Below are positions 5,046 to 32,803 of a stretch of 64,000 nt of DNA, piece by piece. The stretch is from Arthrobacter globiformis (GTDB taxonomy: Bacteria > Actinomycetota > Actinomycetes > Actinomycetales > Micrococcaceae). A program made the position numbers and the translations under genes. The stretch lies in contig NZ_QLNP01000074.1 in NCBI RefSeq assembly GCF_003261175.1, forward strand, positions 141,314 to 205,313, given 5' to 3'. How positions within the stretch are numbered: position 1 is the stretch's first letter; every line of letters begins with the position of its first letter. The notes under the pieces are model-generated. The model did not search any database and was not told the DNA's origin. It worked only from the letters and a program-made list of their open reading frames with translations.

Positions 5046-6098
5046 ATGAAGGCTTTAGTACTGACGGAGTTCGGCAAGGATCTTGAAGTTCTGGAGGTGC
5101 CGGAGCCGGACCTGACAGCCAAGGGCGCGCTGATCCGGGTCGAAGCGAATGGGATCTGTCGCAGTGACTGGCACCTCTGGATGGGCGACTGGGACTGGCT
5201 GGGCCTGAAGCTGGAACTGCCCCACGTGATGGGCCACGAGTTCGCCGGCGTCATTGAAGAGGTGGGATCCGAAGTTTCGCGTTACAAGAAGGGTGACCGC
5301 GTCGTCGTACCCCACGCTCACGGTTGTGGGCACTGCGAGTACTGCCTCGCAGGGCATAACAACATCTGTGAAAACGTCTCGTTCGCCGGCACCAACTACT
5401 GGGGCGGCTATGGCCGCTTCGTCGAGGTTCCGGACGCCGACCGCAACCTCGTCCGTCTGCCCGAGAACGTTGACTTTGACGCGGCCGCCGGCCTGGGATG
5501 CAGGTTCATGACCGCCTTCCACGGCATCGTGGACCAGGTCAGCGTCAAGCCTGGCGAATGGGTATCGGTTCACGGCTGCGGCGGGCTGGGCCTCTCGGCA
5601 ATCCACATCGCCGCTGCCATGGGGGCCAACGTCATCGCCGTGGACATCAACGAGGACTCCCTCGCGCTGGCAAAGTCGCTCGGTGCAGTGGCAACCGTCA
5701 ACGGGCGGAACGAAGACCCGGTCGCGGCAATCCGGGAGCTTACCAAGGGCGGAGCCCACGTAGCCGTGGACGCCCTCGGGATCTCCATCACCTGCCAGGC
5801 CGCGGTCAATAGCCTCCGCAAGCGCGGCCGCCTCCTGCAGGTCGGCCTGACATCCAAGGAAGAAAAGGGCATGATTGCCCTGCCCATCGACAGCATCGTC
5901 CTTCAGGAACTGTCGATCGTCGGGTCAGCCAACATGCCGGTCTCCCGCTACCCCGACATGATGCGCATGGTCGAGCGCGGCATCCTGAACCCGGGCAGCA
6001 TGATCACCAACCGAGTAGGACTTGACGAAGCCGGGAGCATTATCGCCTCCATGGGTGAATTCAAAGGCAGCGGCATCAGTGTCCTCAACCGCTGGTAG
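5046..6098 (+). CDS. zinc-dependent alcohol dehydrogenase (MDR family)
   Basis: This 350-residue protein is a medium-chain dehydrogenase that would oxidise an alcohol to an aldehyde or ketone with NAD(P)+. Catalytic-zinc ligands are visible at Cys38 (GICRSDWH) and His64-Glu65 (GHEFAG). Four structural-zinc cysteines lie at about 94, 97, 100 and 108 (CGHCEYC...NNIC), and the nucleotide-binding loop is HGCGGLGLSA near 176-185. The start at 5046 is chosen over 5010 because GGAG lies five bases before it and MKALVL is the normal family N-terminus. The ALDH gene follows 49 bases later, so alcohol to acid oxidation is the likely combined step. An operator-like site shared with fbiA stands upstream. 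Confidence 0.9.
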   Translation: MKALVLTEFGKDLEVLEVPEPDLTAKGALIRVEANGICRSDWHLWMGDWDWLGLKLELPHVMGHEFAGVIEEVGSEVSRYKKGDRVVVPHAHGCGHCEYCLAGHNNICENVSFAGTNYWGGYGRFVEVPDADRNLVRLPENVDFDAAAGLGCRFMTAFHGIVDQVSVKPGEWVSVHGCGGLGLSAIHIAAAMGANVIAVDINEDSLALAKSLGAVATVNGRNEDPVAAIRELTKGGAHVAVDALGISITCQAAVNSLRKRGRLLQVGLTSKEEKGMIALPIDSIVLQELSIVGSANMPVSRYPDMMRMVERGILNPGSMITNRVGLDEAGSIIASMGEFKGSGISVLNRW

Positions 6099-6147
6099 CA
6101 CACCAGCCAACGTCACCACTCTCCTGAACAGCTGAAAGGCTCCTGAA

Positions 6148-7632
6148 ATGAAGATGCTTATCAATGGGGAAAAGCGCGACGCCCGCAATGGCGCCATCTC
6201 CGAAACACTGAATGTCGCCACCAATGAAGTCATCGATACGATCCCCTCTGCCACCGCGGAAGACATCCAGGAGGCCTTGGAACACGCGCAGGAGGGCGCA
6301 AAGATCTGGGCTGAGACACCTGCCCACCAGCGCTCATCCGTCCTGACAAGGTTCGTGGCGACACTGCGCGAAAACATCGATGAGCTTGCGGTCCTGCTGG
6401 CCGGTGAGAGCGGTAAGATCCTCGCCCATTCCCGGAACGAGCTGGAAACAGCCGCGCGAATCTTTGAGGGATTCGCCGAGGAGTCCAAGCGGATCTTTGG
6501 TCAGTCCATCCCGTTGGATATCCAGCCCGGGCTTGAGGGGGATCTCCTCATTACCAAGCGCGAGCCCTTGGGCGTTATTGCCGCCATCCTTGCCTTCAAC
6601 TTTCCGGCTGAACTTTACGCACAGAAAGTTGGCGCCGCCCTCGCCGGCGGAAACGCTGTTATCGTCAAGCCCCCGCAGGATGACTCCCTCACCTGCATCC
6701 GGATGACCGAAATGCTTCTTGAAGCCGGCGTGCCGGGCAAGACGCTGCAGATTGTGACGGGATCCGGATCGGTGACTGGCGACTACCTGTCTCGCAGCGC
6801 ACTGATCAACGGACTGAGCTTTACCGGCAGCACGAGGGTCGGAGAAATGATTGCGGAAAACACGGCGCGTAACGTCGTCCGCACCTTCCTTGAGCTCAAC
6901 GGCAACGATGCGTTCATCGTTTGCGAGGACGCCGACATCGACCTTGCGGTCCAGCACGCCGCCATCGGCCGCCTATACGGCAACGGGCAGGTCTGCGTGG
7001 CCACGAAGAGGATTCTGGTCGAGGAATCACGTTACAGCGAGTTCCTTGCAAAGCTTACGGATCAGGTGCAGGGCAAGAAATCAGGGGACCCGACCGATCC
7101 CTCGACCGAGATCGGCCCGCTCATCAACGAGCGTGCGGCGAAGGACGTTGAGAACCAGATCCAGCAGGCCGTGTCTGAAGGCGCCACTATTCACCTTGGT
7201 GGCAAGCGGGACGGGGCATTCGTCGAGCCCACCATCCTTGAAATCACCAGGGAAGTCGGGATTGCAACCGACGATGAAATCTTCGGCCCGGTGTTCTCCG
7301 TTCTGCCCTTCCGAGGCATCGAGGAAGCCCTTGAAATTTCCAATGCCTCCTCATTCGGGCTCGGCGGTGCGGTCTTCTCGACCGACTTCCACAAAGCCTA
7401 TTACGCTGCCAGCCGCATGCAGACGGGCATGGTTTCCATCAACGGCGGCAACTGCTACCGTCCCGACGGAAGTGCCTTTGGCGGGTACAAGAAGAGCGGC
7501 ATCGGACGCGAAGGCTTCCTGTACACGCTTGAGGAACTCACTCAGATCAAGAGCATTGTGATGCGCGGAATCCTCACGAACCCGCTGTCTCCCAGCGCTG
7601 CAACCGGAACTGAAACCATCACCGGCGACTAG
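6148..7632 (+). CDS. NAD(P)-dependent aldehyde dehydrogenase
   Basis: This 494-residue ALDH-superfamily enzyme oxidises an aldehyde to its acid. Expected active-site residues are present: Asn151 (AFNFPAE), Glu249 (FLELNGND) and the nucleophile Cys283 (GNGQVCVAT). The cofactor loop FTGST is also present. Length is normal. AAAGG lies upstream of the ATG. It forms an operon with the preceding zinc ADH and ends at a strong hairpin. The physiological aldehyde is unknown. Confidence 0.92.
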   Translation: MKMLINGEKRDARNGAISETLNVATNEVIDTIPSATAEDIQEALEHAQEGAKIWAETPAHQRSSVLTRFVATLRENIDELAVLLAGESGKILAHSRNELETAARIFEGFAEESKRIFGQSIPLDIQPGLEGDLLITKREPLGVIAAILAFNFPAELYAQKVGAALAGGNAVIVKPPQDDSLTCIRMTEMLLEAGVPGKTLQIVTGSGSVTGDYLSRSALINGLSFTGSTRVGEMIAENTARNVVRTFLELNGNDAFIVCEDADIDLAVQHAAIGRLYGNGQVCVATKRILVEESRYSEFLAKLTDQVQGKKSGDPTDPSTEIGPLINERAAKDVENQIQQAVSEGATIHLGGKRDGAFVEPTILEITREVGIATDDEIFGPVFSVLPFRGIEEALEISNASSFGLGGAVFSTDFHKAYYAASRMQTGMVSINGGNCYRPDGSAFGGYKKSGIGREGFLYTLEELTQIKSIVMRGILTNPLSPSAATGTETITGD

Positions 7633-17564: not shown

Positions 17565-18365
17565 CTAACGGGCCCCGCCTCCAAAGGCAGACGCTGCGCG
17601 CTGGCCGTCTTTGTACCCGTTGGAGTAGGCCTCGTCGCTGCCGAGTCTGAACATGTCCTTATCCGCTGGCCGGACCAGGCTGCGCGCTGCCCCGGCAGGC
17701 GAATCAAGGTCGTCAATGACCAGATGGGACAGACCGCGCACCAGCGCAACGGGGCACCCGTTGGATTTGCCCTTAACCAGGTCAGCGGCACCAGCGATCT
17801 CATCGGCAACGGCGGCCGCGGAGGCAAGAAGCAGGTTCCCGTGCGGGTCGCGGGTTCCCCGGTAGTCTTCAAGCACGCGCACTCCCGCCGCACCGATGGC
17901 CGCGTCTGTTTGCCCTTCGCGCCACGGTCTGCCGAGAGTATCGCTGAGGATCACCGCGATCGCCACCCCAAACTGCATGCGCAGATCAGCGCACAGCTTC
18001 CTGGCAGACGCGTCGGGGTCGGTCGGAAGGAGCAGGACCGTGCCTTCGGGCGTGTTGCTATTGTCGACTCCCGCTGCGGCCAGAACCAGTCCCTGCCGGT
18101 TTTCCACGATGCGCGTCAGACCCCCGGGGTACGGTCTGCTGGCCACAAGCCGGACTGTCTCGGCGGTGATGGCAGCCTCACGGTCAGCGGCCGCGACCTG
18201 CCGGCCTTCGGCTTTGGAGACGATTTTGCTCGTAACGACGAGTATGTCCCCGTTCTGGATGCCCTCAGGAGACTTGCTGATCGCTGCGCCGATAATCTCG
18301 GCAAGGTTGTCGTCAGAGGTGACCTCTGGGATTCCCGCAAGGGTGGTAATTAAAAGGCCGGACAT
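17565..18365 (-). CDS. cofE: coenzyme F420-0:L-glutamate ligase, single-domain
   Basis: This 266-residue protein is the CofE domain that adds gamma-linked glutamates to F420-0. Conserved stretches include [33 protein letters not shown] and [13 protein letters not shown]. The usual actinobacterial FbiB is a fusion of about 450 residues, with a C-terminal nitroreductase domain that reduces dehydro-F420-0. That domain is absent here and there is no room for it: the TetR gene ends 45 bases beyond. The gene starts inside the end of cofC (16-base overlap) and is last in the F420 operon. Confidence 0.9.
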
Positions 18366-19141
18366 GACTTCCTTTGCACGCTGGGATTTGCTAACAGACG
18401 GATTTGGCGGTGCTCGCCTCCCAAGGGCACCGGACGAGCTGGGAAAAGGCCGGAGGCAAGCAGCGCGGCACGGGTGTGGGCGCCGACGCCCCGCTCTATG
18501 GCACTGGCAAGGTCCTCAAGAGTGTCTACGTCAGCACGCAGGGTCGAGCTGCGGGGTATGGGCAGCAGACGGTGGCCGGCGTGCTGGTGTCCGGCACGGG
18601 AATGAGGGCCAAAGCAGGGATTCACCGGGGCTCCTGGCAGCGCCGATATCATCGTGCTCCCCGTCCCGTCCAGATCCGGAACGATGCCGAGTGAATGATG
18701 TTTCGCGCCTTCGAGTGCGTATTCCAGATCTCTCACCTCAAGGCACGGAAGGTCTGCTGTTATCGCGGCTACGGGAGTCACCCCCAGCGATCGTGCGAAG
18801 GCGAAGCCCGCCTTAACCGCACCATTGAGCCCCTGCCCGGGATCCGGGAGCATCTGGATCTTCCCTGCATCCATGACGGTGGCGGGGTCGGAAGAAACGA
18901 CAATGATGTGTGCAACATTGGCCGCTGCCGCTGCTGCCGTAACGGTGTCCCGGAGAAATCCGAGCGCGATTTCACGTCGAAGGCCGGGACCCAGTCGATC
19001 CGTCCCTAAATTGCCCTGAAGGCGGCTCTTGCCGTTCGGTCCGCCCTTGAACGGCACCACAAGAGTCCACTTGGCGTCCCTGCTCGCCCAAATTGGGAGG
19101 CCTCCTCCAGCGGGCGCGACCCCGGAGCCGCTGCTGATCAT
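18350..19141 (-). CDS. cofC: 2-phospholactate/phosphoenolpyruvate guanylyltransferase
   Basis: This 263-residue protein matches CofC/FbiD. It has [14 protein letters not shown], a nucleotidyltransferase N-terminal loop, [16 protein letters not shown] and the ITADLPCL metal-site motif. It activates PEP (actinobacteria) or phospholactate with GTP to give the FbiA substrate. About 20 residues precede the normal family N-terminus. The frame closes by overlapping cofE and it lies 29 bases after fbiC, within the fbiA-fbiC-cofC-cofE operon. Confidence 0.9.
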
Positions 19142-19170
19142 GAAGTGGTTCCTTTCGAGATGTGTGCTCG

Positions 19171-21795
19171 CTACTTCAGGGACAGGGGGAGCAGGCGAAG
19201 GTCTTTGCCTGTAGCGGCGAATCCGGTGTCTGCGTTTTGTCGGGCGACAGCTAGGCGCTCCGCTGTCGGCGTTCCGTAAGTCGTAGTGCGCTGCAAGGGA
19301 ATCCGCCCGATGGAGCTGATCATGCGCTCAAGTTCCGAGACTGTCTTCTCGGAACCGTTGTCGGCTCCGGCCATGCGGCTGATGGTCTCTTCCATGAGTG
19401 TTCCGCCCAGGTCATTGGCTCCTCCCTGAAGCATGAGTTGCGTACCCTCGGTACCGAGTTTTACCCACGACGTCTGTATGTGATCGATCCGGCCGTGGAG
19501 CATGAGGCGGGCCACGGCGTGGATGGCACGGTTTTCCTGCATGGTAGGTCCAGGGCGGGCGATGCCTGCAAGATAGACCGGGGCGTTCGTGTGGATGAAC
19601 GGAAGCAGAACGAATTCGGTGAATCCGCCGGTTTCGTCCTGAATCCTGGACAGAGTGCGCAGGTGTCCCACCCAGTGCGAAGGGTTGTCGACATGGCCGT
19701 ACATCATCGTTGAACTGCTGGGGATGCCGAGCCGGTGAGCTGTACTGACGATGTCGATCCATGTTGCCGCCGGCAGCTTTCCTTTGGTCAGCAGCCATCG
19801 GACTTCATCGTCAAGTATTTCTGCGGCAGTGCCTGGAATGCTATCGAGCCCTGCATTGCGCGCTTCGGTCAGGAACTCCTCGAAGGACATCCCGAGGCGT
19901 GTCGCCCCGTTGACGATTTCCATCGGGCTGAAGGCGTGCAGGTGCATACCGGGCTGGCGCTTCTTCACCTCCCGTGCAAGATCAAAATATGCGCTGCCGG
20001 GCAAATCGGGATGAATACCGCCCTGCATGCAGATTTCAGTCGCGCCGACGGCCCAGGCTTCATCAACCCGGTCCCCGACCTGCTTCATCGACAGTGTGTA
20101 AGCGTCGGCGTCGGTCCGTCGCTGCGCGAAGGCGCAGAAACGGCAGCCTGTGTAACAGACGTTGGTGAAATTTATATTCCGGTTCACCACATAGCGCACC
20201 TCATCGCCAACCGTGTGTGCTCTCACATCATCGGCCAGCGCAGCCAGGGCCTCCAGCTCCGGACCCTCTGAGGAGAGCAGCCGGAGGTAATCGGCGTCTG
20301 AGAGCCCTGCCGGGTTGTTCTCCGCCCGGCTGAGAACTTTGCGGATGTCACTGGCCTCGTGGCCGCCGGGGGAGTGGCGTGGGCTATGGTCGCGGGCGGC
20401 GTCTTCACGGAGCGTGGCCCAGTCGCCGTAGACGCCGTCAAAATCACTCCGGCGGTCACTCGTCCGGCCGATAGTGTCTATCTCGATGTGGAGGTTGACC
20501 CGGCCGTGCCCGCCGCTTGCCCATTCCACGTCCGGGTCCTGCCATGGCAGGCCGGCAGGATTTCGTCCTTCTACGGCGAGGCCGTCAGCGCCCGCCAGTG
20601 CACGGACGTGCGGCAGGATGCGCGGATCAAGCCAGGGCTCCTCTTCCTTTATATAGCGGGGGTGGGCGGTCAAGCGTTCGCGGAGTGTGAAGCCGTTGGC
20701 TGCTGTTAAGCGGGCAAGGTCTTCCAGATGTGGCCATGGGCGCTCCGGGTTGACGTGGTCCGGAGTCAGAGGGCTGACTCCGCCCCAGTCATCGATCCCT
20801 GCGCCGATCAGGAGGGCCAACTCGTCCGCGTCGGTGAGGTTTGGTGGTGCCTGGAGTCGGACCTTCGGTCCCAAGACCACGCGGGTGACTGCTATGGCTG
20901 CCACGTATTCTTCCGTTCCGAGGTCCGGTGCAGCCATCATGGCTGTTGCATCCTTGGCACGGAAGTTCTGAACAATGACTTCCTGGATGTTGCCGTACCG
21001 ACGATGCGCGGCCCGGAGGGCGAAGATGGCATCAACACGCTCGGCGTAGTTTTCCCCGATGCCCAACAGGACCCCGGTGGTGAATGGAACGCTGGAACGT
21101 CCGGCATCTTCAAGGACCCTGAGTCGCAGCGCAGGGTCCTTATCCGGCGAACCGTAATGGGGCCCGCCCTTTTCGGACCACAGCCGGGTGGCGGTTGTCT
21201 CCAGCATCATTCCCATAGAAGGGGCGACCGGTTTGAGCCGCTGGATCTCCTCCCAGGTCATGACTCCGGGGTTCAGATGGGGCAGGAGGCCTGTTTCTTC
21301 CAGGACCCTGACCGCCATCGCGCGGACATAGTCCAGCGTTGAGTCATAGCCATGAGAGTCAAGCCATTCCCGGGCGGCAGGCCAACGGTCTTCGGGCCGG
21401 TCTCCCAGCGTGAAGAGCGCCTCCTTGCAGTCCAATTCCGCTCCCTTGCGTGCGACGTCCAGAATCTCATCCGGTGACATGAAGATGCCCTTCCCGGCCT
21501 TTGCCAGTTTGCCGGGAGTGCTGACAAAGGTGCAGTAATGGCACCGGTCACGACACAGGTGCGTGACTGGGATGAAAACCTTCCGGGAGTAGGTGATGAT
21601 GCCGGACTGGCCGGCCTGCTCCAGACCGGCATCGCGGACCCTGGAAGCCGCGGTCATCAGGCGCGTGAGATTTTCCCCTCGGGCATGCAGGAGCGTTTGG
21701 GCCTCGTCGGGGTTTAGAGTCACCCCGTCCTCTGCGCGGCGCAGGGCCCTTCGTATTGCGCTTTCGGAAGGGACGAACGTATCCATCGCGGTCAT
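19171..21795 (-). CDS. fbiC: FO synthase (bifunctional FbiC, CofG-CofH fusion)
   Basis: This 874-residue protein carries two radical-SAM domains. The N-terminal (CofG) cluster motif has Cys81, Cys85 and Cys88 ([10 protein letters not shown]). The C-terminal (CofH) motif has Cys547, Cys551 and Cys554 (VCYTGCRFC). It joins tyrosine and the flavin precursor diaminouracil to make FO, the deazaflavin core of F420. Length fits the mycobacterial enzyme. ATG 21795 is chosen because GGAG lies about seven bases upstream; the longer frame to 21939 runs into fbiA. Second gene of the F420 operon. Confidence 0.95.
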
Positions 21796-21860
21796 GATCA
21801 AACTCCAGGGTAGGGGCGGAGGGTTGCTGCGCCCGACAGGGCGTGGGTGGATTGCAGGGG

Positions 21861-22874
21861 CTAGGGGGTGGCCATCGAGGTGGCCATGTCCAATGCGGCT
21901 GAAGCCATGGCGGCAGTGGCCTGCGTATCTGTCATCCACAGTGGGGCCGTCGCCCCCCGGATGCCGAGTTCCTTCAGACTGGGAAGGTATTCGGCATCAG
22001 TAACATCCATGAGCCATCCGTCCAGAACGCCGCCGCGAGTTCTGGCGCCATAGAAACCAGCCACTCCGAGAGCAGTGGCATCCACGCCGACGGTCTGGAG
22101 GCACTGCTCGGCCATCCCGCGCACGGCCGATCCGCCGATGATGGGGGACAGGCCGACAATCCGGGCGTCCGTGCTGTCGAGGGCATCACGGACGCCGGGA
22201 ACTGCCATGATCGTTCCCACCGACACCACCGGGTTTGACGGACACATGATGATGGCGTCCGCGGATCCTATGGCTTCGATGACCTCCGGTGTGGCCGAGG
22301 CCTGCTCCAGGCCAACCTGGATGAATTCGCTAACCGGGATACCGGCGCGGTAGCGCACCCACCATTCTTCAAAATGGATCAGCTCACCGGCCATATGCTC
22401 GGAGGTGCCCTGAGCAAGGCGGACGTGCGTTTCGACGGGTTGATCGCTCATGGGAAGGAGGCGAACCCCAGGACGCCAGCGCTGGCACAGCGCTTCAGTG
22501 ACCCGAGTCAGCGTTGCGCCTTCACGCAACATGTCCGTGCGGACGATGTGCGTCCCCAGATCGAGATCGCCGAGGGTAAACCAGTCCCAGCCACGGCCGT
22601 AGGCACTGATTTCAGCAGCCGCACGACGGCTTTCGCCACTGCGTCCCCAGCCCTGGTCCTCGTCCACTCCGTCACCCAATGTGTACATGACAGTGTCCAA
22701 ATCCGGACAAATACGCAGGCCGTTCAGCCACATATCATCTCCGGTGTTGGCAACTACGGTGACTTCAGGGGCCTTAGAACCGGCATCAGCGAAAGCGTCG
22801 GTCAGATGTGCACGGAGGCCGCGGACGAAACGGGCGCCACCCACGCCGCCGGCCAGAACCGTGATTCTCTCCAT
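21861..22874 (-). CDS. fbiA: phosphoenolpyruvyl/2-phospho-L-lactate transferase
   Basis: This 337-residue protein is FbiA/CofD, which transfers the activated phosphoenolpyruvyl group to FO. The N-terminus [17 protein letters not shown] and the [17 protein letters not shown] stretch are characteristic, and [15 protein letters not shown] binds the nucleotide. It is the first gene of the minus-strand operon. The ribosome site is modest (AAGGAT 14 bases upstream). A perfect palindrome lies between the promoter and the start codon, so regulation of the whole F420-synthesis set at this point is likely. Confidence 0.93.
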
Positions 22875-24158: not shown

Positions 24159-24436
24159 TCCGGGGTCATCCGGAGCAGCGAAACGAGCGTGAATCTAGGC
24201 AGCCGTCGACGGAAGGTGAACAGGCGCGACGATGGGCAAAAGCTGCCAGCGCGAGCCTTCTGAGAGACGTTTCTAACGGAGATGCCATGGAAGCGGGAAC
24301 TGTTGACCGCGAACGCTCTAAACCGCGGCAGTGGATCCCGCCTGGCGTAGCGGGTAGTCCTCGAATACCGAACTAAGCGCGGAAACAAAGGCTAGGTCTG
24401 CAGGTGAAGCGGGTGCCGGCAGCTAGGATTCGTTCA

Positions 24437-25282
24437 ATGCAGCATCAGTGGACGGGCGGACAACTCAAGCGATTAAGCAAATGTCTCCGCGACGGGCTGG
24501 AACCCCGTGGCGACGTCCCGGATTATGGCGAGGTGATGGTCTTTTACAACGACGTGGCCGTCCATGTCGAGCAACAAATCGACGAGATTGACTGGCCGGA
24601 GCTTCTCGGCGGCGTACGGCCGAAAGTTACATCCCGGGCCAAGTCCATTGACACTCTTCGGGAAAAGCTGCAGAGGGAACCCACCACGCCACTGCCCAGC
24701 GTGCAGGACGTCGCCGGTGTCAGGTTTGAGGCCGATATGACGCTGGCTGAGCAAGACAAGGTTGTTCAACAGCTCGTGGGGGCGTTTGGCGCCGGCTGCA
24801 CAGTTCGCGATCTTCGCAAGGAACCGCACAGTGGCTATCGAGCTGTGCACATCTGGCTCAGACTTCCTGTCCGGGCGGAGCTCCAGGTTCGTACTCAGCT
24901 CCAAGGCGCTTGGGCGAACATGTATGAGTCGGCTGCCGACGTTTTCGGCCGCGAGATTCGGTACGGCCACATGCCCGAGGACGACGCGTCAGCCAATCTC
25001 GTCGAGCAGATGCACGCCCTTTCTCTGGACCGCATCGTCACCTTGGAGAAGTCACGCAATGAGGTCCAACAACTTGAGATTTCCCATGGCCGGTCTTCTC
25101 AATTTCTCCAAACTCTCATGCCAGGGCCGAAGGGAGAACGGATCGCGGACGAAGTGGCGCAGCTGCGAGGAACGCTGCACAGAGTGCGCGAGCTGCTTCG
25201 AAAGCAGGAGGAAGCGACCACAGAGGAGATGGTCGTTCTTAAGCGTCGCTTTGATACCATGCGAGAAGAACGAAAGGGGTGA
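24437..25282 (+). CDS. RelA/SpoT-domain small (p)ppGpp-type synthetase
   Basis: This 281-residue protein contains a single synthetase domain, about residues 50-185: VTSRAKSIDTLREKL, VQDVAGVRFEAD, EPHSGYRAVHIWL and the AELQVRTQLQGAWA motif. There is no HD hydrolase and no TGS/ACT domain. The C-terminal part is helical, with a coiled-coil-like stretch. It could make alarmones or, like toxic small alarmone synthetases, act as a toxin by pyrophosphorylating nucleotides or tRNA. ATG 24437 has AGGA eight bases upstream; GTG 24404 is an alternative. The next gene starts at its stop, suggesting a toxin-antitoxin type pair. Confidence 0.82.
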   Translation: MQHQWTGGQLKRLSKCLRDGLEPRGDVPDYGEVMVFYNDVAVHVEQQIDEIDWPELLGGVRPKVTSRAKSIDTLREKLQREPTTPLPSVQDVAGVRFEADMTLAEQDKVVQQLVGAFGAGCTVRDLRKEPHSGYRAVHIWLRLPVRAELQVRTQLQGAWANMYESAADVFGREIRYGHMPEDDASANLVEQMHALSLDRIVTLEKSRNEVQQLEISHGRSSQFLQTLMPGPKGERIADEVAQLRGTLHRVRELLRKQEEATTEEMVVLKRRFDTMREERKG

Positions 25283-26522: not shown

Positions 26523-27104
26523 TTAGGCGGTGGTAAACAGCATTGATGCGCCTACGCATGCCGTCCCGAACAAGACAAGTGCGGCGAAGCCATTGACCGC
26601 CTTTCCGCATGCGGTGAACTTGCGTTCCGCCAGGAGTGATAGGTCGAGGACTTGTTGCCACGCGTCCGCGCGGACATCATTGTGGCTCGTATGCTCGAGT
26701 AGTTGTTCCGGTGTTGCCCGGACGAGGGAAGGCCAGGCAAAACGATTTAGTCGGGCGTAGAAGACCTTGTTTTGTGGTCCAATTGCTCGCACTAGCCAAA
26801 ACAGTGTCCATCCAACTGCCAACACGGTTCCGACAGCGAGCCCGCTGACGACTGCTGCCGAGACATGACTCTTGCCCATTGCGTCAAGGATCGTTCGCGA
26901 GTTATTGATCAACATTGTCAGGACGACGCCCAAGCCAGCTGTCAGGATCGTGGCCTTTGTGTCTGCAAAGCGAACCCAGTTTGCCAGTTGGTCCATAGCC
27001 TGGAACCCGCCGTCAGCTGGTTTGCCATCTGCGGGCTTGCCAGCAAACGTGGGGTCCGGTGCCGCCGGCTCGGGTTCGGAGTTTGGGTTACGTTTAGACC
27101 GCAA
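26523..27104 (-). CDS. Pycsar-type membrane effector (PycTM-like)
   Basis: This 193-residue protein has a Pro/Ala-rich N-terminal 36 residues, the segment LANWVRFADTKATILTAG (about 40-57) and three predicted membrane helices (about 50-67, 82-107, 170-191). An N-terminal helix with WxxFADTKA is the hallmark of the Pycsar effector membrane domain, thought to breach the inner membrane once a cyclic pyrimidine nucleotide is made. The probable start is TTG 27104, which overlaps the E2-like gene by 11 bases. Met37 (26996) is an alternative start that would drop the Pro/Ala tail. Third gene of the operon. Confidence 0.78.
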   Translation of the reverse strand: MRSKRNPNSEPEPAAPDPTFAGKPADGKPADGGFQAMDQLANWVRFADTKATILTAGLGVVLTMLINNSRTILDAMGKSHVSAAVVSGLAVGTVLAVGWTLFWLVRAIGPQNKVFYARLNRFAWPSLVRATPEQLLEHTSHNDVRADAWQQVLDLSLLAERKFTACGKAVNGFAALVLFGTACVGASMLFTTA

Positions 27105-27708
27105 TGCCCTGTGATCCTTCCACGGGCCAACGGCGAGTCATGCGCCATTCGGTGTAGGCAGCGAGCCAGTGAGCAGCCCAGGACGCGGCGGTAGCAACGG
27201 TGTGTTCCCGTGGATTCCAGTCCTCAGCTGCTGCCACGCAAAGGGTGCCGTTCAAGTACAGGTGAGGCGACGGGATCCAGCGCCGACCTGCGTTCACGCC
27301 AAGTTTCGGCCCCAGAACCGTAATCCTAGGCAGTCCCTCATCACGGCGGGGGTAGATGGCCACGAGGAACTTGCCGCGCCCGGTGTCGATGGTGCCTCCC
27401 CAAGATGGCGCTTCGTCATCTGTTGCAGCGAGATAGACCCAACCCGGGAAAGATTTATCCATGGCGGCGCGGTGGCGGTTGAATCGGGGAGCGTCATTCC
27501 ACCATGGCGAGGTTTCGGTGCCTTTGTCGGCCGGTGGGTTCTCTCCTCCGTGAAAGGTGTGGTTGGCTACAGGCGTCACCGTGCCGTGGGCAGGGTGCGA
27601 GGAGTTTGCGGGCGTCGTGGTGACGTTATCGAAGACGATTTGCCCGTCGATGGTGACCCACCTCGGGACGTTAACCCCGTGGTGTCGGAGCAGTGCAGCG
27701 ATTGTCAT
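27094..27708 (-). CDS. stand-alone E2-like (ubiquitin-conjugating fold) protein
   Basis: This 204-residue protein has features of bacterial E2-like proteins. A proline/glycine-rich strand region is followed by PSPHLYLNGTLCV, with His149 and the presumed catalytic Cys157, then Trp164 (EDWNP). The C-terminal helix WAAHWLAAYTEWRMTRRWP matches the W..W...Y..W...W P pattern of CBASS-type E2 domains. No E1 or JAB partner is nearby. GAGGAG lies six bases before ATG 27708. It is 18 bases after the cyclase gene and overlaps the effector gene, so it is a built-in part of the operon. The assignment rests on motif recognition and needs a fold comparison. Confidence 0.68.
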   Translation of the reverse strand: MTIAALLRHHGVNVPRWVTIDGQIVFDNVTTTPANSSHPAHGTVTPVANHTFHGGENPPADKGTETSPWWNDAPRFNRHRAAMDKSFPGWVYLAATDDEAPSWGGTIDTGRGKFLVAIYPRRDEGLPRITVLGPKLGVNAGRRWIPSPHLYLNGTLCVAAAEDWNPREHTVATAASWAAHWLAAYTEWRMTRRWPVEGSQGIAV

Positions 27709-27726
27709 GATGAACTCCTCGTCAGT

Positions 27727-28536
27727 TCAATTGATCGTGATGCTGGCTGTGGACTTGCCGTTGACCTGCTGGACGGTGCCCGGAATGTATTTAAGGGCTC
27801 TACGCCAGTGGTACTGGTAGAAGTTGTAGGTCTTGACTACTCCGGCTCGCTGGTAGGACTTCGGCGATTTTTCATGCCGGCTGTACGTCGTGGAATCGGG
27901 GACTTGTTGGGCGATACCCTGGCCGATCACGATCTCCCAAGATTTTGCCTGCTTTTCGCATTTGGCTGCGAAGTTGGCGGCGAACCCCAGGGGGTTGACC
28001 TCGCTGTGCTCGTGGTTCCCGCTACGAACAAAGGTTATGCGTCCGTAGTCCAGGCCGGCCCGGGCTTGGACTGGCTCGATGTTCTTGCGCTGCAACCGTG
28101 GATTTACTTCATTTTGTACGGCGTCCAGGGCAAAGGCGCAGGCGCTCAATGCCATGACGCTGTCGATTTGAGCATTGCCCGGACCGAAGCCGGCAAACAG
28201 TCCGTCGCCGCGGAGTCCAAGAGGGAAGCCGCCGAACGCGGTTACTGTTTGTATGAACCCTGTGAGGAGGGCGTGGGCTAGGTCGGCAACTTCTGTCTCG
28301 TCGTCCCAGAAGCTGCGGCCGGTGAAGTCGGTCAGATCGATGAACACCACCACCATGGGTGAAGTTAGGCGCTCCCCGACACGCAGCGTCTCGAACGCTG
28401 GATGACCGAGTGCTTTGGTCTCCAGAGCCGCGGAAGCACGGAGAGACTCTTTCATGACGCCGTTAGTTGCACGACGAATCGAGAAATCACCCATGACGGC
28501 GTCGCCGAACATGCCGGGCGTGTACTCAGTCATCAT
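27727..28536 (-). CDS. class III nucleotidyl cyclase, PycC-like
   Basis: This 269-residue protein has a single cyclase domain and no sensor domain. Metal ligands are expected at Asp67 and Asp111 (VVVFIDLTDFT and GLRGDGLFAGFG), and the transition-state region is LGFAANFAAKCEKQA with Asn188. The compact architecture and the gene order with a PycTM-like effector point to a pyrimidine cyclase (cCMP or cUMP) that senses phage infection, not to a housekeeping adenylate cyclase. GGAG precedes the first ATG. The C-terminus (TASITIN) has no terminal glycine of the kind used for conjugation in CBASS. Substrate specificity cannot be read with confidence. Confidence 0.82.
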   Translation of the reverse strand: MMTEYTPGMFGDAVMGDFSIRRATNGVMKESLRASAALETKALGHPAFETLRVGERLTSPMVVVFIDLTDFTGRSFWDDETEVADLAHALLTGFIQTVTAFGGFPLGLRGDGLFAGFGPGNAQIDSVMALSACAFALDAVQNEVNPRLQRKNIEPVQARAGLDYGRITFVRSGNHEHSEVNPLGFAANFAAKCEKQAKSWEIVIGQGIAQQVPDSTTYSRHEKSPKSYQRAGVVKTYNFYQYHWRRALKYIPGTVQQVNGKSTASITIN

Positions 28537-30852: not shown

Positions 30853-31236
30853 TCACGATGAAATAGCCTCTAAACGCCTCAGCGCACTTGCGACTTTTTC
30901 GAACGGCTCGTTGTCAGTACCAACTAGGCGCTCGGCAGTTGCTTCTTTGACCGTCAACTTGTCCCAGTATGGCCTTTCCGATGTTTCCCCCCATGATCGG
31001 TCTACTTCCCAAAGATAACCGTCGGTGCCCAGCACCAACGTGCCACCGATGTAATGGAAGTCTTTCCAATCGTTCCCCAATGCATCGCTATACTTTTGGC
31101 CGCTAGCGTGATCGGAGCGACGACCAGGCACGAGCTCCCATCCGTTAATTTCACCGAAGGTCTGGATGCGGGTAGACGCCGTAGTGGCAAGGGCGGCTAC
31201 GCGCTTCGCTTCAGATCGAAGCTCAGTGAGATTCAC
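30853..31236 (-). CDS. small unknown protein, paralogue family member 1
   Basis: This 127-residue cytoplasmic-looking protein (MNLTELRSEAKRVAALA...) contains DGYLWEVDRSWGE and ends with RLVGTDNEPFEKVASALRRL. The C-terminal pattern LVGxxxxPFxKxxxxLxRL is shared with the proteins at 31660 and 32447. AAAGGACGA lies directly before ATG 31236. Function unknown. Confidence 0.7.
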   Translation of the reverse strand: MNLTELRSEAKRVAALATTASTRIQTFGEINGWELVPGRRSDHASGQKYSDALGNDWKDFHYIGGTLVLGTDGYLWEVDRSWGETSERPYWDKLTVKEATAERLVGTDNEPFEKVASALRRLEAISS

Positions 31237-31659: not shown

Positions 31660-32043
31660 CTAGTACTGGTATCGAAGGCGTTGGAGTATCTCTTTGTACT
31701 TACTGAAGGGCTCTCCCTCTGATCCCACAAGGTAACTTTTCGGCATTGGCCTAATTCCATGACTGAGACGCGTGTCGCGCTCATGCTCATCGACGCCGGA
31801 GAAGGAATACTCCCAAAACCTGCAATCGGAATCGATGACATACGCGGTCCTGCCCCAGGCCTCCTGCCACCACCCCCTTCCTGGATTTCCGCGGATCTCG
31901 ATGTCTCGCTCAATCCCATCGAACTGCCAACCAAGGATGGTTTGTCCATCGCTGCTTGTGAACGTGGCTTTCGGCACGGATTTTGAGATCAACGTCGCAA
32001 CAGTGTCTTGAGCCGTTGTCATAAAGTCTTGCTCGTAGTCCAT
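31660..32043 (-). CDS. small unknown protein, paralogue family member 2
   Basis: A 127-residue protein if read from ATG 32043 (MDYEQDFMTTAQDTVATLIS). This start aligns with the N-terminus of the plus-strand paralogue at 32447 (NYESDFW...). An upstream ATG at 32082 adds 13 residues and has AAGG before it. It shares TFTSSDGQTILGWQ and SYLVGSEGEPFSKYKEILQR with the other members. No known family is recognised. The gene faces away from the paralogue at 32447. Confidence 0.7.
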   Translation of the reverse strand: MDYEQDFMTTAQDTVATLISKSVPKATFTSSDGQTILGWQFDGIERDIEIRGNPGRGWWQEAWGRTAYVIDSDCRFWEYSFSGVDEHERDTRLSHGIRPMPKSYLVGSEGEPFSKYKEILQRLRYQY

Positions 32044-32082
32044 ATCGGCCTGCCTAGTCTCTTTCCCTTGGGTTTCTTGCAT

Positions 32083-32446: not shown

Positions 32447-32803
32447 ATGGTGAATTACGAAAGCGATTTCTGGGATGCTGTTAGAAACAGCATCGACGTC
32501 TTGAAGGCCAAAGGAGTTCCTACAACGCTTTTTACATCATCAAGTGGGCACGCGCTGCAAGGTTGGCTGGTTGAAAGATGGCATGAAAATACAGATGGTG
32601 TAGGCCCCGGAGGCACGCCTCTCGAACGTTGGCACAGTGAAGTGGTTCTCAGCGAGGACGGAAAGTTTTATCTCTACAGCGTCGAGTGGACTTACGGTGA
32701 AGGCGAAACGCGTTCGTTGCAGCCTCATTCGGGACTGGTTGGATGGGAAGGAAAGCCATTCTCCAAGCTTAAAGAGCAGATTGAACGGCTGCCGTACCTT
32801 TAA
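32447..32803 (+). CDS. small unknown protein, paralogue family member 3
   Basis: This 118-residue protein (NYESDFWDAVRNSIDVLKAK) aligns end to end with the minus-strand protein at 31660: TLFTSSSGHALQGW, YLYSVEWTYGEGE and GLVGWEGKPFSKLKEQIERL. Oppositely oriented close paralogues suggest local duplication and inversion. No family is recognised. Confidence 0.7.
   Translation: MVNYESDFWDAVRNSIDVLKAKGVPTTLFTSSSGHALQGWLVERWHENTDGVGPGGTPLERWHSEVVLSEDGKFYLYSVEWTYGEGETRSLQPHSGLVGWEGKPFSKLKEQIERLPYL

Follow-up and report, generated by a model that had tools for sequence, protein, structure and literature searches.

To our knowledge, the CD-NTases of the cyclic oligonucleotide-based antiphage signaling systems (CBASS) are the only immune nucleotide synthases known to be under ubiquitin-style control. 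In these systems the control of CD-NTases has been described in two reports (PMC11153139, PMC10419184), and the second states that Cap2 uses the C-terminal Gly or Ala of the CD-NTase. Concerning the pyrimidine cyclase system for antiphage resistance (Pycsar), the base-recognition residues of the cyclase EaPycC are given as F100, R142, and Q144 in a report that leaves undecided whether oligomerisation activates PycC (PMC11224242). Here, we describe a three-gene operon found in a stretch of 64,000 nucleotides of Arthrobacter globiformis (contig NZ_QLNP01000074.1, positions 141,314 to 205,313; hereafter, the window), in which a PycC-type cyclase, a stand-alone E2-like protein, and a PycTM-type effector are encoded together. 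This cluster suggests that ubiquitin-style chemistry in bacteria may control a Pycsar signaling enzyme too.

An earlier sequence-only reading of the window knew of no described Pycsar type with this layout, and this agrees with the literature that we searched, where, as far as the texts were available, no Pycsar system was described with an E2; the founding Pycsar paper and that on E2-only CBASS lay outside that search. Two PADLOC systems labeled "PycTM, PycC" are reported for Paenarthrobacter lasiusi (PMC11719660), but they span approximately 1.5 and 1.2 kb and are thus too short for three such genes. The operon represents Pycsar plus a CBASS-type E2 logic, for which priority is not established; the PADLOC "E2" and "Pycsar cyclase" models fall in one number range, and therefore such operons may already stand in a supplementary table.

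The three-gene locus

The three genes form a tight cluster of about 2.0 kb on the minus strand, transcribed in the order cyclase, E2-like protein, effector:

27727..28536, minus strand: leading gene, class III nucleotidyl cyclase of the PycC type, 269 aa
27094..27708, minus strand: stand-alone E2-like protein, 204 aa, middle gene
26523..27104, minus strand: last gene, membrane effector of the PycTM type, 193 aa, starting with TTG

Between the cyclase and E2 genes lies a gap of 18 bases (27709-27726), and the E2 gene shares 11 bases with that of the effector (27094-27104), exactly as the sequence-only reading had described the open reading frames, their lengths, and their spacing. That reading had also proposed a Pycsar-like operon with an added E2-like gene, and PADLOC profiles recognized all three products accordingly (PycC, 1.5e-28; E2, 2.5e-17; PycTM, 8.2e-12). 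The observation of a three-gene operon of this kind is confirmed, and its interpretation as a whole is partly supported. In the Pfam scan, PycTM reached 19.1 bits (cut-off 27.2; E 0.0018) and Guanylate_cyc 14.1 bits (cut-off 21.9), both falling short, and the E2-like protein had no match, so that Pfam alone would miss the operon. The NCBIfam scan did not give any match for the cyclase, the E2, or the effector.

Conservation and distribution of the operon

The order and direction cyclase-E2-effector were found in 20 of 20 loci, in one of which (L017) the E2 frame is broken. These loci comprise the window, 16 loci from an E2 scan of genome contigs, and three (L020, L023, and L041) from further genome searches; L019, L022, and L042 duplicate L002, L015, and L007, respectively. 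L002 and L003 are near-copies, and L003 was omitted from the counts based on 19 rows. The loci belong to at least seven actinobacterial families, i.e., Micrococcaceae, Microbacteriaceae, Gordoniaceae, Nocardioidaceae, Intrasporangiaceae, Kribbellaceae, and Mycobacteriaceae. Since the order recurs in all the loci, the three-gene arrangement is far from chance, and the gene order, for which the sequence-only reading had suggested a survey, is conserved.

Homologous loci without the middle gene would refute the sequence-only reading by its own terms, and this check did not refute it. The check leans mainly on the searches that started from the cyclase, because most of the loci came from E2 queries. 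Among 297 genomes of the order, close matches to the cyclase were present only in the own genome, G638, and G617, which are the genomes with close E2 matches; among 296 genomes of the phylum, only the own genome had a close match, and the 14 remote cyclase loci of this sample had no E2 match by tblastn. A close cyclase without an E2 was seen in neither sample, with few candidates scored per genome. The E2 family appears to be rare, being detected in three of 59 relatives (own genome included), in one of 396 genomes of the phylum (the own genome alone), and in four of 396 genomes of the order sample (own, two close, and one distant); the PADLOC E2 model found it in four of 296 genomes of the class sample (again own, two close, and one distant). 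The alignment-scored surveys considered at most eight candidates per genome, so these counts are lower bounds and an E2-less cyclase could escape them.

Compared with the two nearest loci, the three genes show 0.10-0.21 nonsynonymous (dN) and 1.35-2.46 synonymous (dS) substitutions per site, and compared with L004, dN is 0.28-0.40, with a dS of 1.7 for the E2 that is not computable for the cyclase and the effector. This pattern would be a rough sign of purifying selection, and only a rough one because dS is near saturation.

Carriage of the operon by phages, viruses, or plasmids was considered and rejected, since tblastn did not detect relatives of the E2 in 50,697 phage records or in 72,556 plasmid records, and no E2 or cyclase relative was confirmed in viral contigs. 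Two further candidates were not counted as members and were assigned to other systems: L024, a lone E2 beside a weak Prok-JAB match (14.8 bits, cut-off 25), and L043, a lone E2 beside a ThiF gene.

The cyclase and its C-terminal tail

The closest match of the cyclase, both in sequence and in fold, is EaPycC from Elizabethkingia (PDB 8jsf), a cyclic cytidine monophosphate (cCMP) synthase. The enzyme is a PycC family member by sequence and by fold, its nearest clade being clade E, whose members make cCMP, and the first product was correctly read as PycC-like. The three residues highlighted by the sequence-only reading, Asp67, Asp111, and Asn188, are invariant in the 18 aligned cyclases. The features of the gene are the following:

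28336..28338, minus strand: codon of Asp67, first metal-binding Asp by homology, invariant in 18/18 and aligned with EaPycC Asp102
28204..28206, minus strand: codon of Asp111, second metal-binding Asp by homology, invariant in 18/18 and aligned with EaPycC Asp146
27730..27804, minus strand: C-terminal tail, the 25 residues past the last Trp, with the Gly260 codon at 27757-27759

In the alignment, the positions of EaPycC F100, R142, and Q144 are occupied by F65, G107, and R109 in the window cyclase, so that one of the three is kept and two differ, and a cCMP or cUMP product is a prediction.

In all 20 loci the tail after the last Trp has a length of exactly 25 aa; a Gly stands at position -10 in 18 of 19 rows and an Ile or Val at -4 in all 19 (L003 left out). 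The 12 plasmid cyclases included in our tree range from 239 to 468 aa and have dissimilar ends. Such a fixed tail fits the idea that something has to recognize it. A leftover of the N-terminus of a second cyclase (48% identical over 65 aa) lies at 3159-3347 of L012, where the intact operon follows about 2 kb downstream.

The E2-like protein and the search for E1 and JAB partners

The predicted model of the middle protein matched E2-type folds in all 50 matches listed, among them the E2 of the Serratia CdnG-E2 complex. According to this model, the fold of the protein is that of an E2, so that the lack of such a fold, which the sequence-only reading had named as a refuting outcome, did not occur, and the E2-like identity assigned to it at the outset is maintained. 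Both His149 and Cys157, which the sequence-only reading had singled out, are invariant in the 17 aligned proteins. Cys157 aligns with a Cys of the E2 in PDB 8hsb, in a weak match (E 0.094). The relevant positions are:

27262..27264, minus strand: His149 codon, giving the His in H-x7-C, invariant in 17/17
27238..27240, minus strand: codon of Cys157, putative catalytic Cys, invariant in 17/17
27514..27708, minus strand: N-terminal region (residues 1-65) with an HTFHxG motif, outside the E2 profile matches

The PADLOC E2 matches begin at residue 77 or later, and ahead of them His50, Thr51, Phe52, His53, and Gly55 are invariant in 17 of 17 sequences. The invariant His residues of the N-terminal 65 residues are H9, H50, and H53, and this region might perhaps constitute a metal site or a docking domain.

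The E2 alignment contains 17 sequences and leaves out L017. At 6001-6613 of this locus, the E2 frame is disrupted near residue 22 and the cyclase and effector are intact; the break corresponds either to a decayed gene or to a sequencing error. The E2 frames called from the first start were too long in L004, L006, L012, and L016, and the alignment uses the same aligned start for all of them. A tree that also took in distant E2s reached saturation, with branches as long as 10, and no branching order was drawn from it.

The sequence-only reading had noted the lack of E1 or JAB partners, and this holds beyond the window: none of the 20 genomes has a ThiF or Prok-JAB match within 60 kb of the E2 on the same contig, although some of these contigs are shorter than 60 kb (e.g., 26.8, 31.2, 55.4, and 59.1 kb) and there the absence covers the contig only. 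The nearest match of either kind is a partial ThiF match of 21 bits, about 69 kb away, in G1060. Within the operon, the three genes have no ThiF or JAB match in Pfam or PADLOC. Elsewhere in the genomes, ThiF-family genes are present in 19 of 20 and Prok-JAB in eight of 20; in the own genome, the ThiF matches lie only on other contigs and there is no Prok-JAB match. Since no ThiF gene lies near the E2 and 19 of the genomes have one elsewhere, any charging of the E2 would be either E1-free or dependent on a borrowed housekeeping E1.

The effector and the likely partner of the E2

The third product had been read as PycTM-like, which the PADLOC match substantiates, and the seven further effectors tested by PADLOC, including that of L006, were all PycTM. 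Pairwise distances over 18 loci correlate at 0.87 between cyclase and E2, 0.69 between cyclase and effector, and 0.67 between E2 and effector; this calculation leaves out L017, and an earlier version with 19 rows gave 0.86, 0.74, and 0.72. In L005, L006, L009, and L013, the effector is only 22-28% identical to that of the window, whereas the cyclase and the E2 are 51-57% identical. These comparisons indicate that the cyclase-E2 pair is the stabler unit while the effector diverges, and because the pair is maintained, the cyclase seems a likelier target of the E2 than the effector.

A second association between PycC and an E2-like protein

We have opened 11 plasmid loci with PycC-type cyclases (L044, L045, L049-L053, and L058-L061) out of 34 records listed. 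The Chryseobacterium plasmid pA2BH1 (NZ_MN657149.1) encodes a PycTM, a PycC, and then a protein annotated only as SEC-C, which matches PADLOC E2 models down to 1.4e-51 and the "E1-E2" model at 1.7e-56 and contains the H-x7-C motif. This pairing thus occurs in the Bacteroidota. The SEC-C gene overlaps the cyclase gene and not the effector gene. The other 10 loci did not show a recognizable E2 among the annotated or scanned neighbors, which were partly scanned. In Haliscomenobacter, Aliarcobacter, and Ligilactobacillus, relatives of the SEC-C protein have CD-NTases as neighbors, and in Aliarcobacter there is also a gene whose annotation reads CBASS phospholipase.

A profile comparison between the window E2 family and the SEC-C family gave a weak result (E 0.007, probability 5.5). 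The two are linked by the common H-x7-C spacing, by the PADLOC naming, and by the model PDLC00862, weakly matched by both (3.5e-5 for the window E2 and 4.4e-5 for the SEC-C protein). A PDB sequence search with the Chryseobacterium protein returned SecA zinc motifs and one unrelated weak match. The SEC-C proteins are likely E2s.

In the cyclase tree, the 19 actinobacterial enzymes form one clade (97/97), and the linkage to an E2 takes two changes that are forced by well-supported branches; some plasmid rows, including Chryseobacterium, are long-branched. Because two changes are needed, PycC seems to have gained E2-like partners on at least two occasions, one of them involving a family that also occurs in CBASS-like loci.

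Other arrangements were also observed in the plasmid loci. In a Runella plasmid (L054, 1899-5394), a SEC-C E2-like gene lies beside genes for MBL-fold hydrolases with no cyclase annotated among its neighbors, and it is perhaps another system using this family. A Desulfosporosinus plasmid (L052, 2381-4545) carries one PycTM-type gene between two cyclase genes, and an Acinetobacter plasmid (L053, 1690-3307) has a short PycTM-type gene (99 aa) followed by a PycC-type cyclase; this record holds a second cyclase match.

Proposed mechanism and alternative explanations

We propose that the locus is a Pycsar-type abortive-infection operon with an E2-like regulator that covalently primes the cyclase, a reading to which we give about an even chance. 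The E2 would act on the cyclase, Cys157 forming a thioester with its C-terminal tail, or cleaving inside the tail, without an ATP-using E1. The E2 would then pass the cyclase to a lysine, perhaps on another cyclase. Once the cyclase has been primed in this way, phage infection would trigger a burst of cyclic (pyrimidine) nucleotide, which would open the PycTM effector, and the cell would stop. Such a mechanism would copy the logic proposed for E2-only ("type II short") CBASS. Priming of the cyclase by the E2 is consistent with the data, and we count in its favor the family and fold assignments, the conserved gene order, the reciprocity of the matches, the invariant Cys157 and His149, the cyclase-E2 correlation, the fixed cyclase tail, the lack of ThiF and Prok-JAB genes nearby, and the second PycC-E2 association.

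Several observations weigh against this proposal. The E2 chemistry, the cyclase product, and the phage phenotype are all predicted. The Pfam PycTM score of the effector (19.1 bits) stays below the cut-off (27.2), only one of the three EaPycC base-recognition residues is kept (F65, the others being G107 and R109), and L017 combines a broken E2 frame with an intact cyclase and effector. The C-terminal Gly or Ala used by Cap2 is not kept in this cyclase family, the final residue being R in seven, G in five, and another residue in seven of 19 rows; L006 has Asn instead of Gly at -10; and residues 261-269 are predicted to be ordered (predicted local distance difference test of about 82) and not a floppy ubiquitin-like tail. 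Moreover, the constant length of the tail is by itself weak evidence, because the C-terminal end of the E2 hardly varies in length either (constant in 18 of 20 loci). Finally, the effector correlates with both other genes (none of 2000 permutations was as high, for every pair), and its divergence may reflect faster evolution in two lineages rather than exchange.

The main rival, which we regard as possible but unlikely, is that the E2 is a non-catalytic binding partner that holds or inhibits the cyclase until infection, Cys157 being structural or a redox sensor. The lack of an E1 gene at the locus and the conserved extra N-terminal region, which could be a docking domain, would suit such a role, and the top ten matches of the fold list are UEV domains (Tsg101, Vps23). 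UEV domains are catalytically dead relatives of E2s that lack the catalytic Cys, but here all 17 aligned proteins keep Cys157 and His149, and even the distant E2-like family keeps the H-x7-C spacing. It is less probable still that the target of the E2 is the PycTM effector, or some protein of the host or the phage, to be modified with a host ubiquitin-like protein charged by a housekeeping E1 of the ThiF/MoeB type. ThiF-family genes do exist elsewhere in 19 of 20 genomes, and in 12 of 20 loci the E2 gene shares 11 bases with the effector gene when the first possible start is taken, but it is the cyclase that remains paired with the E2 as the effector diverges, and in Chryseobacterium the E2 gene overlaps that of the cyclase and not that of the effector. 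Nor does the operon have a fourth gene for a ubiquitin-like protein, the rest of the genomes not having been searched for one. We consider very improbable that the operon is not antiviral and that the cyclase makes cyclic AMP or cyclic GMP in a housekeeping pathway with an incidental link to the E2, a view that can invoke the abundance of class III cyclases, the predicted nature of the Pycsar product, and the retention of a single EaPycC base-recognition residue.

In a bolder version of covalent priming, which we consider rather unlikely, the role of the ubiquitin-like molecule would fall to the class III cyclase itself, in a conjugation system of two components that needs no E1. Through transpeptidation the E2 would cut or capture the fixed tail of 25 residues, either close to Gly260 or at the very end, building cyclase-cyclase conjugates that switch on cyclic pyrimidine signaling, and this E2 control would have been acquired at least twice from E2 families also present in CBASS. 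If so, bacterial immunity would possess, in the coupling of an E2 to a cyclase, a portable regulatory module that is independent of the cyclase fold.

Neighboring genes

Outside the operon, the window contains other genes:

24404-25282, plus strand: RelA/SpoT-domain gene (Pfam, 4.3e-7; PADLOC PDC-S33, 3.9e-13), small alarmone-synthetase-like, possibly another defence gene
30853-31236 (minus strand), 31660-32082 (minus strand), and 32447-32803 (plus strand): three small proteins right next to the operon that resemble one another (identity of 30-34% across 55-125 residues) and lack matches in Pfam, PADLOC, and NCBIfam
18350-22874, minus strand: genes for coenzyme F420 synthesis, with CofC and CofH/radical SAM domains by Pfam

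The gene 21861-22874, which we take to be CofD, was used for an empty-site comparison that gave no result: it yielded short DNA fragments in three of 40 other genomes of the same genus, the full match being found only in the own genome among the 41. The other flank of the operon is a member of a multi-copy gene family.

Comparison with known systems

Should a class III cyclase, whose fold is unrelated to that of the CD-NTases, be under E2 control as well, E2 coupling would be a general, transferable switch, and this would bear on how Pycsar cyclases are held off and then triggered. With three genes in about 2.0 kb, the operon is compact and easy to test.

The operon resembles Pycsar clade E (EaPycC with PycTM) in its class III cyclase, which consists of a single domain and has an N-terminal helix and the two metal-binding Asp residues, and in the PycTM-type effector encoded in the same operon. 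It differs from this clade in the E2 gene placed between cyclase and effector and in the change of two of the three base-recognition positions. Unlike type II short CBASS (Serratia CdnG-E2, PDB 8hsb and 8yjy), the window locus has a class III cyclase instead of a CD-NTase, its E2 has about 65 residues ahead of the E2 core, and its effector is PycTM-like. It would share with type II CBASS, where Cap2 is an E1-E2 fusion and Cap3 a JAB protein, the coupling of E2 chemistry, here predicted, to a nucleotide-signal synthase (PMC10419184), but neither an E1 nor a JAB was found at the window locus. The Chryseobacterium pA2BH1 locus also combines a PycC, an E2-like neighbor, and a PycTM; there, however, the E2 belongs to a different, SEC-C-bearing family, its gene comes last, and the PycC stands elsewhere in the tree.
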